DNA of 14,579 bases from Clostridiales bacterium (GTDB lineage Bacteria > Bacillota > Clostridia > Tissierellales > Sedimentibacteraceae), in NCBI GenBank assembly GCA_003497505.1, contig DNNV01000155.1, positions 3,046 through 17,624 on the forward strand. Reading direction: 5' to 3'. The notes beneath the pieces were generated by a model. That model did no database searches, had not been told where the DNA came from, and saw only the letters and a program-made list of their open reading frames with translations. The first letter of the stretch is position 1. The number at the start of each line of letters is the position of its first letter. Both the position numbers and the translations under genes were made by a program. Shown here piece by piece: positions 265-4,147 of this stretch.

Positions 265-437
265 GAAGGGTGAATATCGTTAAATCCGAAAGTGTTGCCG
301 AATATGAGGTTCAAGAATGGAGACGTTAGAATTATGCAGAATATAAAATAAAACATTTAAAGCTAAAATATCTTTAAGTCTTTTTATATTTATATTTTCA
401 AAATTCAGACTCTTACTTGTGTGAAAAATAACATTAT

Positions 438-481
438 AATAACCTTGTCATCAGTAAATATAATTTGATGACAAGGTTATT
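438..481. terminator. Perfect 16-bp hairpin, probable original glmS / upstream-gene convergent terminator
   Basis: The arms 438-453 and 466-481 are perfect inverted repeats around a 12-nt loop. T/A-rich sequence follows on both strands, although neither side has a long clean U-tract. If the transposon at 513-2097 and one target duplication are removed, this hairpin falls about 50 nt downstream of the glmS stop codon. That suggests it was the native terminator of glmS, shared with the plus-strand gene at the left edge. Confidence 0.65.
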
Positions 482-507
482 TATAATTAGTGATAACATT
501 AATTATA

Positions 508-512
508 ACTCA
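508..512. repeat. 5-bp target site duplication ACTCA, left copy
   Basis: ACTCA sits directly outside the left TGTT terminus of the Tn7-like element and is identical to the five bases directly outside the right terminus (2098-2102). Five-bp duplications are the signature of Tn7-family insertion. Confidence 0.85.
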
Positions 513-541
513 TGTTCACCAACAGTGAGTCGTGAAAAAAA
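513..541 (+). repeat. Left terminal inverted repeat of the Tn7-like element
   Basis: It begins TGTTCACCAACAGTG and continues into AGTCGTGAAAAA (528-539). The right end, read inward on the minus strand, begins TGTTAAACCACAATTA and continues into the same 12 bases; one single-base gap aligns the two. The segment probably contains the outermost TnsB binding site of this end. Confidence 0.8.
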
Positions 542-544
542 ATG

Positions 545-760
545 CCACGAGACATTACAAGCTATGATGTATTCTTTGTTTCCTCACTGAGAAATTGTCC
601 CACTAGCCAATACATTGTCTGCTTTTATGCGGGAAAGAAGTACAACTGTCTCCACATGCCTTGAGATGACAATAATGATGTCGTAAGTATCTAGTCCCAC
701 CTTGGTGGCAGGTTATCCTTAAAAATCGCTCGAACAAGCAGTGCCGAAACACTCCCTAAA
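545..760 (-). pseudogene. Relic of an RlmD/RumA-type 23S rRNA (uracil-5-)-methyltransferase C-terminus
   Basis: On the minus strand, 629-658 reads HVETVVLLSR. This motif is characteristic of the C-terminal end of RlmD/RumA-type RNA uracil-5-methyltransferases in Clostridia (my recollection of the family, not a search). The same frame reads DTYDIIIVISR just before the motif and KADNVLASGTISQ after it, then meets a TGA. Upstream sequence shows no continuous methyltransferase frame and no catalytic cysteine region, so only a decayed scrap remains. The outer limits given are approximate. It lies against the left end of the transposon and was presumably cargo, or was captured there. Confidence 0.45.
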
Positions 761-800
761 AGTCGCATGGATACTGCCTGAAGCATTCCTTAAAGATTTT

Positions 801-1274
801 TTATTTATTAAGCTTCACAACAATATTCTTGATTCCTGTCACTGCAAATGTGACTAGTCCACTAAATATAAATAAGAATCCTATCGGCAGTAAGAAGAAG
901 TTCTCGTGCAAAAATCCTTCGGCATCGATGTATTCCACAGAGTTTGCTTTTATCAGAATACAAGTCACACCGAAGAACAGCAGTACAGCACCGATGGTGA
1001 TAGCAATTAAATTCATTTTTGCTCTTCGGGTTTCGCTTCCGTCTTTGATCAATTTTTCAGTCATGTTGTTCATATTTTTTCCTCCTAAGATTAATTGGTC
1101 GAGCGAAAGGTCAAACGCCACGGATAATTCTACAACCATTTCTAAATCCGGAAGATTTTTGTTGTTTTCCCAATTCGAGATAGCCTGCCTCGATACATTT
1201 AATTTTGAAGCTACCTGCTCTTGAGTCAACCCTCTGTCCTTTCGAATCTTTCTTAACTGTTCACCAAAATCCAT
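801..1274 (-). CDS. XRE-family regulator with two C-terminal transmembrane helices (DUF3955-like)
   Basis: 157 residues. The N-terminal 65 residues are a classic Cro/C1-type helix-turn-helix: LRKIRKDRGLTQEQVASKL followed by the recognition helix region NVSRQAISNWE (about 26-36) and the LPDLEMVVELS segment. A charged linker (66-86) leads to two hydrophobic helices at about 88-108 and 126-147 with a basic C-terminal tail. This arrangement resembles XRE proteins carrying a DUF3955 membrane module, so it is predicted to be a membrane-tethered DNA-binding regulator; its target is unknown. GGAGGTG lies 8 nt before the ATG, and a good promoter (1301-1329) lies just upstream. It is the only complete gene of recognisable type in the Tn7-like element. 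Confidence 0.85.
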   Translation of the reverse strand: MDFGEQLRKIRKDRGLTQEQVASKLNVSRQAISNWENNKNLPDLEMVVELSVAFDLSLDQLILGGKNMNNMTEKLIKDGSETRRAKMNLIAITIGAVLLFFGVTCILIKANSVEYIDAEGFLHENFFLLPIGFLFIFSGLVTFAVTGIKNIVVKLNK

Positions 1275-1300
1275 TTTATAACACCTCCGCTTTCTCTTTA

Positions 1301-1329
1301 ATCATAGTATCCCACTGCCGCTCAATCAA
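1301..1329 (-). promoter_or_regulatory. Sigma-A promoter of the XRE regulator gene
   Basis: On the minus strand TTGATT (1324-1329) and TATGAT (1301-1306) are separated by exactly 17 bp. The expected transcription start is about 20 nt before the ATG, so the leader is short. This fit suggests the regulator is still expressed from inside the element. Confidence 0.6.
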
Positions 1330-1610
1330 GCAAGCAGCTCTTGCATTGACGATTTTCAGTGCCATAATCACTATCATTGCTCACTTCAGCACTGATTTCA
1401 ACAATTACCGACTTAATAATGTGATCTGGTTTTATTTCACTTATGGAAATTCAAATCACCGTTACTCTGCATAAAGCATTGCCTGCATACATAGGTGAAA
1501 TTATATAAATTTATTTCAGGCCTTTTTACTACACTTAACTTTACTTTCTTGTCATCTATAGAACTTAATTTGTTAATTAAATTCATCAATTATTATATCA
1601 ATTATTGGAG
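1330..1610. other. Intergenic sequence of the transposon with no supported gene
   Basis: Neither strand has a reading frame with both a convincing start and a recognisable product. An imperfect short inverted repeat (GGTGAAA...TTTCAGGCC, around 1494-1520) is the only structure seen. It may be decayed cargo or the scar of the deletion that removed the tns genes. Confidence 0.4.
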
Positions 1611-1934
1611 TTAATATAAACTCAAATTCTTTTCTAATACCTGCATTCTTATAACTTCCCACTTTATCAAAACTCCCTTATCCCCATACAACTGTTCAGC
1701 AACCAATTTTATCCTTCTCATTTGAAATTCTTCAACCGTTTCACATATCTCATTTAATAATTTGCTTGTTTTAGGTAATTTATCAATATATCTATAAAGT
1801 AAACTACCATATCCTGTTCTTTTACCAATGAAGGATTTTGTAACTCTAACTAATTTTTCAGAACTTATTATTTTTTTATATTTCTGCTCAATATCAAAAA
1901 ACATATAGATAATATGAGGTAATATTTCTATCAT
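1611..1934 (-). pseudogene. tnsD: C-terminal fragment of a TnsD (TniQ-family) target-site selector
   Basis: The frame encodes 107 residues matching the C-terminal part of TnsD-type proteins: KLVRVTKSFIGKRTGY (about 27-42), LLYRYIDKLPKTSKLLNEIC (about 45-64), ETVEEFQMRRIKLVAEQLY (about 65-83), ending with a W-containing helix (KWEVIR). TnsD is normally around 500 residues with an N-terminal TniQ domain and zinc-binding motif; those are absent. In Tn7, TnsD binds the 3' end of glmS and recruits TnsABC. Here the fragment lies 190 nt from the glmS stop in the same orientation, as expected for a Tn7-like element. It has a fair start (ATG with GGAAG 9 nt upstream), so a short product is possible, but a strong hairpin lies just upstream at 1973-2019. 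Family assignment is from pattern recognition without a database search. Confidence 0.72.
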
Positions 1935-1972
1935 AGTTTCATTCTTCCTTTTATTACTTTTATTTTACTTCC

Positions 1973-2019
1973 AAATAAAAAAATCTGTAGCATATTAACT
2001 TCTACAGATTTTTTTATTT
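1973..2019. terminator. Perfect 18-bp bidirectional terminator inside the transposon right end
   Basis: Arms 1973-1990 and 2002-2019 are perfectly complementary around an 11-nt loop. A GC-containing stem core (ATCTGTAG) is flanked by runs of A on one side and T on the other, so it can act as an intrinsic terminator on either strand. It now lies about 100 nt downstream of the glmS stop, so it can end glmS transcription and insulate the element. Confidence 0.8.
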
Positions 2020-2068
2020 AGAGAACACATTTTTATGCTTATTTTTTATGTTTATAATAATTCAATTA

Positions 2069-2097
2069 CTTTTTCACGACTTAATTGTGGTTTAACA
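2069..2097 (-). repeat. Right terminal inverted repeat of the Tn7-like element
   Basis: Read inward (minus strand) it starts TGTTAAACC, then ACAATTAAGTC, then GTGAAAAA. The ACAATTAAGTC part closely resembles the TnsB binding site core of Tn7 itself (ACAATAAAGTC, from memory). It shares AGTCGTGAAAAA with the left end. The TnsB-site reading is inference; the repeat itself is directly visible. Confidence 0.8.
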
Positions 2098-2102
2098 ACT
2101 CA
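2098..2102. repeat. 5-bp target site duplication ACTCA, right copy
   Basis: Identical to 508-512 and immediately outside the right terminus. Twenty nucleotides separate it from the glmS stop codon. Confidence 0.85.
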
Positions 2103-2182
2103 CAAAATTCTTATTTAACAATTTATTCAACAGTTACCGACTTTGCAAGATTTCTCGGTTTGTCAATATCGCAGCCTCTCAG
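2103..2182 (-). other. attTn7-type attachment region (glmS 3' end and downstream 20 nt)
   Basis: The segment encodes the glmS C-terminus CDIDKPRNLAKSVTVE and the 20 nt after the stop. In E. coli this conserved coding end is what TnsD binds, directing insertion a fixed distance downstream. The transposon end at 2097 matches that geometry, so this is the recognition half of the attachment site. Confidence 0.75.
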
Positions 2183-3913
2183 GAGTGCAGCGTAGTATGA
2201 AAGATACTGTGCCGGAATTATTGCAGACAGGGGTGAAAGAAGCTCGTTTACGTCATCTATTACCACTTCGTCGGTTTCCTGGCTGAATTTGCGCATGGAT
2301 ATTACCATGGTCGCAGCTCCTCTTGCCTTTACTTCCTTGATGTTGCTTCTTGTGTTGAGATTTATATTTTCCTGTGTAATTACAGCAATAACAGGTGTAT
2401 TTTTCTCTATTAACGCTATGGTTCCGTGCTTAAGCTCACCTGCAGCAAAGCCCTCTGTCTGAATGTATGATATTTCTTTCAGCTTGAGAGCAGCCTCCAG
2501 GCATACGAAGTAATCCATACTTCTTCCTATATAGAAACAGTTTCTGCTGTTTGACAGATATTTTTCAGCAAGCTCTTTGTAATTATCCTTATCGTCACAG
2601 AGTGTTTCCATAGAGTAGGCTATTTTGCTCAGCTCTTTGAAAATATCTATGTTTATTTTATTGTCAACCAACGCTGCCAATATTGATAACACAGCAATCT
2701 GAGCAGTATATGCCTTTGTTGAGGCAACCGCTATTTCAGGTCCTGCATACAGCAGCAGTGTATTGTCTGCCTCTCTTGACAGAGTAGAGCCCTTCACATT
2801 TGTAAGCGTTAGAGTTTTATATCCCAATTCCTTAACCTTTACAAGTACGGCTCTGCAATCTGCCGTCTCACCGCTTTGTGATATAAACATGAACAGCGGT
2901 TTTTCCGATAGAAGAGGCATGTTATAAATAAACTCACTTGCTATAATAACCTCTGTGGGCTTTCCTGTAATTTTTTCAAAAAACTGCTTGCCTATGAGTC
3001 CCGCATGGTAGCTTGTTCCGCAGGCTATGATGTAAAGTCTGTCGCAGTCTCTTACATTCTCAATAATTTCCTGAGGCATAGACATTTTTCCGTTTTCATC
3101 GGAATATTCCGACATTATTTTTCTGATAACAAAGGGCTGCTCCTCAATTTCCTTCATCATGTAATGAGGATATGTTCCCTTTTCAGTATCGGATGCATCT
3201 ATATCCGCTCTGTAAGGCTCACGTATTACTTTATTTCCGTAAATTGTGTAAATTTCTATTTCGTCTTTCGTTATTTTAAGGAATTCCTTATCTTCTATTT
3301 CATAAAATTGATTCGTACAGCTAATCATTGCCATTGCATCGCTGCCCAGCATATTGAAGCCTTCTCCCTTGCCCGCAAGCAGTGGCGTTTTGTTCTTTGC
3401 TGCATACAACGTACCCATATCCTCACTGTCAATGATGGCAAGTGCATATGAACCCTTCAGCTCACTCATTGTGTGCCTTATTGCCAGCGGCACCTCTTCT
3501 CCGTCATTTACGAATTTTTCAATAAGCTGCACTATTACTTCCGTATCCGTATCGCTTGTAAACTTTGTTCCGTTTAAATATTTATGTCTTAGCTCATCTT
3601 CATTTTCGATTATTCCGTTATGCACCAGCGTAAATCTCTTCGTGCTGCTCTGGTGGGGGTGTGAATTTATTCTGTTAGGTACACCGTGAGTTGCCCATCT
3701 TGTATGACCTATACCGAGGTTTCCTTTGATTTCATTGTCCAAGCATTCTCTGAGCTGAGCTATTCTTCCCTTTTCCTTGCATATATAAACATCATTGCTG
3801 TAAGCAACAGCTATTCCTGCTGAATCATATCCTCTGTATTCGAGCTTTTCCAGTCCGCCTAAAATTATTTCCTTTACATCCTCAAATCCTATATAACCAA
3901 CTATTCCGCACAT
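2123..3913 (-). CDS. glmS: Glutamine--fructose-6-phosphate aminotransferase (isomerizing)
   Basis: 596 residues. GlmS converts fructose-6-phosphate and glutamine to glucosamine-6-phosphate, the first step of the UDP-GlcNAc/peptidoglycan pathway, in the cytoplasm. The N-terminal class II glutaminase begins MCGIVGYIG, giving the catalytic Cys after Met removal, with YRGYDSAG and GHTRWATHG following. Two SIS isomerase domains follow (CGTSYHAG and SQSGETADC in the first; YIGRSMDYF and KEISYIQTEGFAAGELKHG in the second), then the universal C-terminal KSVTVE. I chose the ATG at 3913 rather than the in-frame ATG at 3919: GGAGA directly abuts the upstream ATG but lies 6 nt from this one, and Cys must be residue 2. 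Expression is controlled by the ribozyme at 4148-4270. The 3' end is the attTn7 site. Confidence 0.97.
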   Translation of the reverse strand: MCGIVGYIGFEDVKEIILGGLEKLEYRGYDSAGIAVAYSNDVYICKEKGRIAQLRECLDNEIKGNLGIGHTRWATHGVPNRINSHPHQSSTKRFTLVHNGIIENEDELRHKYLNGTKFTSDTDTEVIVQLIEKFVNDGEEVPLAIRHTMSELKGSYALAIIDSEDMGTLYAAKNKTPLLAGKGEGFNMLGSDAMAMISCTNQFYEIEDKEFLKITKDEIEIYTIYGNKVIREPYRADIDASDTEKGTYPHYMMKEIEEQPFVIRKIMSEYSDENGKMSMPQEIIENVRDCDRLYIIACGTSYHAGLIGKQFFEKITGKPTEVIIASEFIYNMPLLSEKPLFMFISQSGETADCRAVLVKVKELGYKTLTLTNVKGSTLSREADNTLLLYAGPEIAVASTKAYTAQIAVLSILAALVDNKINIDIFKELSKIAYSMETLCDDKDNYKELAEKYLSNSRNCFYIGRSMDYFVCLEAALKLKEISYIQTEGFAAGELKHGTIALIEKNTPVIAVITQENINLNTRSNIKEVKARGAATMVISMRKFSQETDEVVIDDVNELLSPLSAIIPAQYLSYYAALLRGCDIDKPRNLAKSVTVE

Positions 3914-4147
3914 AATCATTCTCCATTCTCAAATAATATTTTTTGTTTTAATGATTTAATTTTAAAAATCAAAATAAAGCAACAATACAGTATATTCTTA
4001 AATTTCTCCATGTTGAAACACTAAAGAACCGCATAAAAACAACGAATCCTTGAAATCAAGAAAACCGCCCTTACATATTAATTTTTAATAAATTTGGGGA
4101 ATCATCAGACAAAAGATATTATTTCAATAATAGATATGAAAGCTTTT

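Follow-up and report, generated by a model that had tools for sequence, protein, structure and literature searches.

What a segment with the ends of a Tn7-family transposon, lying beside glmS and holding no transposase genes, can tell us about its history is the question raised by the window, a 14,579-nt stretch of DNA on contig C38 (20,210 bp) of an assembly of 2.5 Mb in 406 contigs that is 75% complete. A first-pass annotation had described positions 508 to 2,102 as a Tn7-like element with intact ends and a target duplication at attTn7, and had read it either as a recent internal-deletion derivative or as a MITE-like relative moved by a full element elsewhere. In our reading, to which we give a probability of about 0.8, the segment 513-2097 is what an internal deletion has left of a TnsABC+D-type transposon of the Tn7 family, and it is most likely immobile.

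The 1585-bp segment has TGTT...AACA termini, and its two ends have in common the exact 12-mer AGTCGTGAAAAA, for which the chance expectation from base composition is about 9e-5 per 1585 nt on one strand. The left end reads TGTTCACCAACAGTGAGTCGTGAAAAA from 513, and the right end, read inward, is TGTTAAACCACAATTAAGTCGTGAAAAA, terminating at 2097. The ends are not exact copies of each other, as AGTCG is preceded by 15 nt in the left end and by 16 nt in the right. These termini, the coordinates, the ACTCA duplication and the 25-nt distance separating the right end from the glmS stop had all been given correctly in the first-pass annotation, while its description of the ends as intact holds for the outermost 27-28 bp and not beyond them. 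The segment has what a Tn7-like insertion should have: inverted TGT...ACA ends with a common predicted TnsB-type site, a right end that faces glmS about 20-25 bp past the stop, and a 5-bp target duplication, ACTCA on both sides and a single copy in the empty site. The position of insertion past glmS is known for Tn7 (in the accessible part of PMC2918618).

The decisive test of insertion is this empty site, carried by one member of the genus (G003), in which the glmS stop is followed by 20 nt, by TGAGT, and then by TATAATTAATG..., which is the window's left flank. The stretch of that genome that is similar to window positions 350-512 begins exactly at TGAGT, 20 nt past glmS (similarity in Table 1). 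The 20 nt that separate the glmS stop from the duplication are not conserved between the two genomes (5/20 identical), so that on the glmS-proximal side the evidence for the joint consists of the word TGAGT and its offset. The empty site is known from one genome, and no other genus-mate resembles the left flank beside glmS in the downstream stretches compared. The insertion at attTn7 with a 5-bp duplication that had been proposed is thus confirmed by the ends, the ACTCA copies, the offset from glmS and a genome in which glmS is joined through TGAGT to the sequence left of 508.

Table 1. Features of the element and its surroundings, in window coordinates.
Feature	Position	Strand	Evidence or remark
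Left flank, former glmS downstream region now displaced by the element	350..507	.	85.8% over 169 nt to G003, duplication included
Target duplication ACTCA, copy distal to glmS	508..512	.	Sequence and empty site
Left end, 27 nt, one TnsB-type site	513..539	+	Sequence and weight matrix; TnsB binding predicted
Non-coding interior	540..800	.	642-716 similar to a short repeat of many relatives
Cargo gene encoding a 157-aa helix-turn-helix regulator that has a DUF3955 domain	801..1274	-	Pfam HTH_3 5.5e-18, DUF3955 1.2e-19
107-aa frame, tnsD C-terminal stump	1611..1934	-	Pfam TnsD 0.0018 (below curated cut-off); order-genome matches; alignment
Intrinsic-terminator-like hairpin, glmS sense	1977..2015	-	Terminator scan and folding
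28-nt right end holding a single strong TnsB-type site	2070..2097	-	Sequence, patterns and weight matrix
Target duplication ACTCA, glmS-proximal copy	2098..2102	.	Sequence
glmS, intact, 3' end conserved as used by attTn7 targeting	2123..3919	-	Pfam SIS and GATase domains; relatives

Between the ends, an autonomous Tn7-like element should carry tnsA, tnsB, tnsC and a target selector; 513-2097 holds no tnsABC, as had been noted before and as we find both with Pfam and by tblastn with the Tns proteins of order-mates, and of the selector it holds one piece. By homology this piece, an open reading frame overlooked in the first-pass annotation, is the C-terminal stump of tnsD. It aligns to the last 46 positions of the Pfam TnsD model, and when it was used in a six-frame search of 249 genomes of the order, matches were obtained in 13 including its own (12/248 of the others), mostly in long open frames, the best being in G243 (2.2e-12) and G041 (1.7e-11). 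In the alignment the window's frame corresponds to the TnsD C-terminus, stopping somewhat before the other TnsD proteins, and shows 26-31% over the alignment to the tnsD C-termini of G221, G243 and G041. A protein search with the stump gave one match of similar length, an identical 59-aa piece on one contig that is listed as the window's own protein. The three order-mates just named have complete tnsABCD sets; all four genes are confirmed by Pfam in G221, and in G243 and G041 TnsB was checked by alignment and the other genes are named from their order and likeness. The set of G243 adjoins glmS and has its tnsD broken into two frames, that of G041 lies about 30 kb away from glmS, and another C-terminal remnant of tnsD is found in a genus-mate, G007, about 18 kb from glmS. 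The Pfam TnsD model matches 3/25 genomes of the genus, always below its cut-off, and gives no match in the window's own genome, which is no proof of absence, since the control was positive in 0/14 genomes.

The order right end, tnsD 3' part, cargo and left end is the one expected if tnsABC and the 5' part of tnsD were lost, and the stump points to an internal deletion of tnsABC and most of tnsD. We suggest that TnsD directed a Tn7-family element to a point about 20-25 bp downstream of glmS, where its insertion produced a 5-bp duplication, and that a later internal deletion would have removed tnsA, tnsB, tnsC and about four-fifths of tnsD. What remains would be a terminator, the tnsD stump and one cargo regulator gene, bounded on either side by the terminal 27-28 bp. 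The relic resembles Tn7 and other TnsABC+D elements at attTn7 in the position that it takes 20-25 bp past glmS with its right end facing the gene, in its 5-bp duplication and TGT...ACA termini, and in its tnsD homology; it differs from them in being without tnsABC and most of tnsD. With the tnsABCD sets of G221, G243 and G041 it has the homologous tnsD C-terminus in common, and with that of G243 also the place beside glmS, but the right-end sequence of G243 is different from that in the window. Besides two features of the end sites, given below, the following speak against the relic reading: the reading frame of the stump has stayed open, the assembly to which the window belongs is 75% complete, and an undeleted sibling, from which the deletion could be seen directly, was not found among the 25 genus genomes, which also leaves the word "recent", formerly attached to the deletion, unsupported.

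To describe the ends further, we used a weight matrix made from five sites of the window's end type, two of which are the window's own, so that their scores are high by construction. Within the first 300 nt of each end there is one strong site (22.9 left, 24.8 right, with these sites included in the matrix) and not the array of several TnsB-type sites found at Tn7-like ends. In the element's orientation the runner-up scores are 3.4 for the left end and 10.0 for the right, where the site concerned falls inside the tnsD stump, at a distance of 228 nt from the end. The best scores from 300 shuffles of the 600 nt lie at 8.6 for the 95th percentile, so that the 10.0 exceeds it, and reach 14.7 at most; this weaker right-hand match counts against the relic reading. 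The prototypic Tn7 right end, unlike this one, has four partly overlapping sites of which the final two must overlap (as given in the available portion of PMC11406308), and 166 bp of the left end and 90 bp of the right are mentioned as sufficient (PMC2918618, likewise in part). An end with one site would presumably be inactive in this family, a suggestion weakened by the window-type right end of G007, which has a single strong site (17.6, itself part of the matrix); a single site may be normal for some such ends and not a sign of decay.

The site next to glmS is often occupied in the genus, which we take as Sedimentibacter. GlmS was searched in 41 genomes, 25 of them of the genus, and a scan of named genomes gave 19 loci, including those of Sedimentibacter saalensis, S. 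acidaminivorans and S. hydroxybenzoicus. A readable glmS 3' end was available in 18 genus genomes, with two each in G014 and G016, giving 20 sequences with the window included. By eye, a Tn7-like right end lies about 24 to 26 nt past the stop in 11/20 sequences from 9/18 Sedimentibacter genomes, namely the window, G021, G009 (with changed outer bases), G013, G007, G017, G015, G016 (two) and G014 (two), and these right ends are of at least three sequence types. When the stretches downstream of glmS (29 bp to 19.4 kb, several very short) were compared by tblastn with the Tns proteins of order-mates, tnsD stumps were detected in the window and G007, and tnsABC in none of them. The right end closest to the window's is that of G021, which has the same core, the same distance from glmS and a terminator-like hairpin just inside, and differs in having two strong sites, 20 nt apart, no left end that we could find, and no tns genes in 18.6 kb downstream.

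Some of these loci carry more than one end. In G007 an apparent left-end array lies about 26 kb from glmS, and 22 nt beyond it comes a window-type right end (3 mismatches). The contig that carries the window has, outside the window and about 4.1 kb from glmS, a 32-nt sequence (L003:1014-1045) that matches a G017-type right end at 93.8%, apparently a second relic in the same orientation as the element. On the basis of these two cases, tandem stacking of Tn7-like elements at attTn7 appears to occur in the genus. The tandem ends allow for a different history, in which the left and right ends come from two related neighbouring elements fused by a deletion between them. The matching duplication would be expected in this case too, because every insertion uses the same site, and the unequal end spacing (15 and 16 nt) and the lack of a match to the left end elsewhere in the genus agree with such a chimera. 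Against it, the exact 12-mer is found in both ends of the element and is absent from the ends of G021 and G007, which favours a single element, and we consider the chimeric origin rather unlikely.

The window's relatives also bear on whether the element might still be moved as a non-autonomous, MITE-like unit by the TnsABCD of another element. Its two outer ends, its duplication and its clean position beside glmS would suit such a unit, as would another short end pair, 425 bp long, in G017. A MITE-like element would be expected in several copies with common ends, but this one is single-copy in its own assembly, where the second match, of 53 nt, is the terminator palindrome against itself, and the left end, allowing up to 3 mismatches, occurs once in the 25 genus genomes. 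The exact right-end core is confined to the window's genome and G021; seven further places have two mismatches, and a reversed control pattern gave two places. Up to 3 mismatches, the right-end pattern is present in 4/249 order genomes (the window's own, G021, G007 and, with 3 mismatches, G057), and in none of the named genomes, from which records close to the window's own may be excluded. Searches of 61 relatives gave short matches, of which the right end of G021 and the tnsD remnant of G007 are informative.

Nor did the searches reveal a helper. The full Tn7-like element with the same ends that the first-pass annotation had envisaged was not found among the 249 order genomes with the right-end pattern, the window's own genome being 75% complete, and a helper could sit in its missing part. 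A TnsB profile built from four order-mates gave 0/25 in the genus, a search that could overlook a TnsB of great divergence or one encoded in the quarter that the window's own assembly lacks; as a control, five of eight order-mates were positive, with G034, G216 and G035 outside the profile, and G050, G160 and G173 were negative. The Pfam TnsA N-terminal domain matches 3/25 genus genomes at four places, none above cut-off. At two of these places (the others being L109 and L110) DNA-methyltransferase-like frames are adjacent, and the matching frames, which by eye resemble restriction-modification genes, were left out of the TnsA count. The 5-mers that flank the G017 end pair, GTATG and TAGAT, are not copies of one another as a duplication would require. 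With a single copy, one strong site per end, and neither a second left end nor TnsB in the 25 genus genomes, we regard the MITE-like unit as very unlikely. The internal-deletion reading, supported by the tnsD stump, is better than that of a mobile miniature element, which is unsupported. It is likewise highly improbable that 513-2097 and the G017 pair are natural mini-Tn7 units of Sedimentibacter, moved between strains by helpers that do not persist while attTn7 keeps filling with units devoid of tns genes.

That 513-2097 is normal intergenic sequence of ancestral origin, its inverted repeat a coincidence, has the shortness of the ends only in its favour. This view is contradicted by the G003 empty site, the tnsD homology and the low chance expectation of the 12-mer, and can be practically discounted.

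Returning to the internally deleted relic, the hairpin that it carries just inside its right end probably now ends the glmS transcripts. In the glmS sense, positions 1968-2022 fold at -23.5 kcal/mol, and 0/200 shuffles are as good. A scan of the 300 nt that follow glmS finds a terminator-like hairpin both where a Tn7-like end is present (G021, G009, G017, G016a, G014a, G013, G007) and where there is none (G018, G006, G003, G019, G002, G005 and the order-mate G028). In the same scan it is weak in G016b and not detected in G024, G008 and G014b, nor in G010 and G015, whose downstream stretches are very short.

A decayed Tn7-like insertion is of a kind already known, and this instance is new. A literature search pairing Sedimentibacter with Tn7 found no papers, and the element is not described in the accessible parts of PMC2918618, PMC10293859, PMC11406308, PMC2359905, PMC8649781 and PMC3401170. 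The locus offers an example of a Tn7-like insertion decaying at a safe site, with glmS intact and a terminator carried inside the right end. In the genus attTn7 frequently holds Tn7-like ends that have no tns genes nearby and would escape a search for such genes; should the element prove to be mobile after all, small Tn7 units would form a class that has been overlooked.

Several further observations concern the neighbouring loci. In G007 (L060, L103) about 26 kb of cargo, including the tnsD remnant, lies between the right end at glmS and the left-end-like array. The 425-bp pair of G017 (L061) extends from +26 to +450 from the glmS stop and is gene-less; its right end holds two sites, and three inverted sites resembling those of a left end can be made out by eye. 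BREX genes follow just past it, with BrxC and PglX confirmed by PADLOC. Two distinct glmS 3' ends with different Tn7-like right ends occur within the single assemblies of G016 (L068, L072) and G014 (L069, L070), which are perhaps strain mixtures. The first bases of the window's contig (L003:1-15) resemble what we take to be a sequencing-adapter remnant, and the contig edge there is probably an assembly edge. The interior 540-800 was initially considered a candidate for the 3' end of an rRNA methyltransferase gene; a strict motif search was empty in 12 loci, but close variants of the motif occur in some frames among nine loci. Within this interior, 642-716 is a short sequence that recurs in many genomes of the order and is possibly the attachment site of another mobile element; in L013 it lies at the end of a 520-aa open frame on the opposite strand, presumably recombinase-like.
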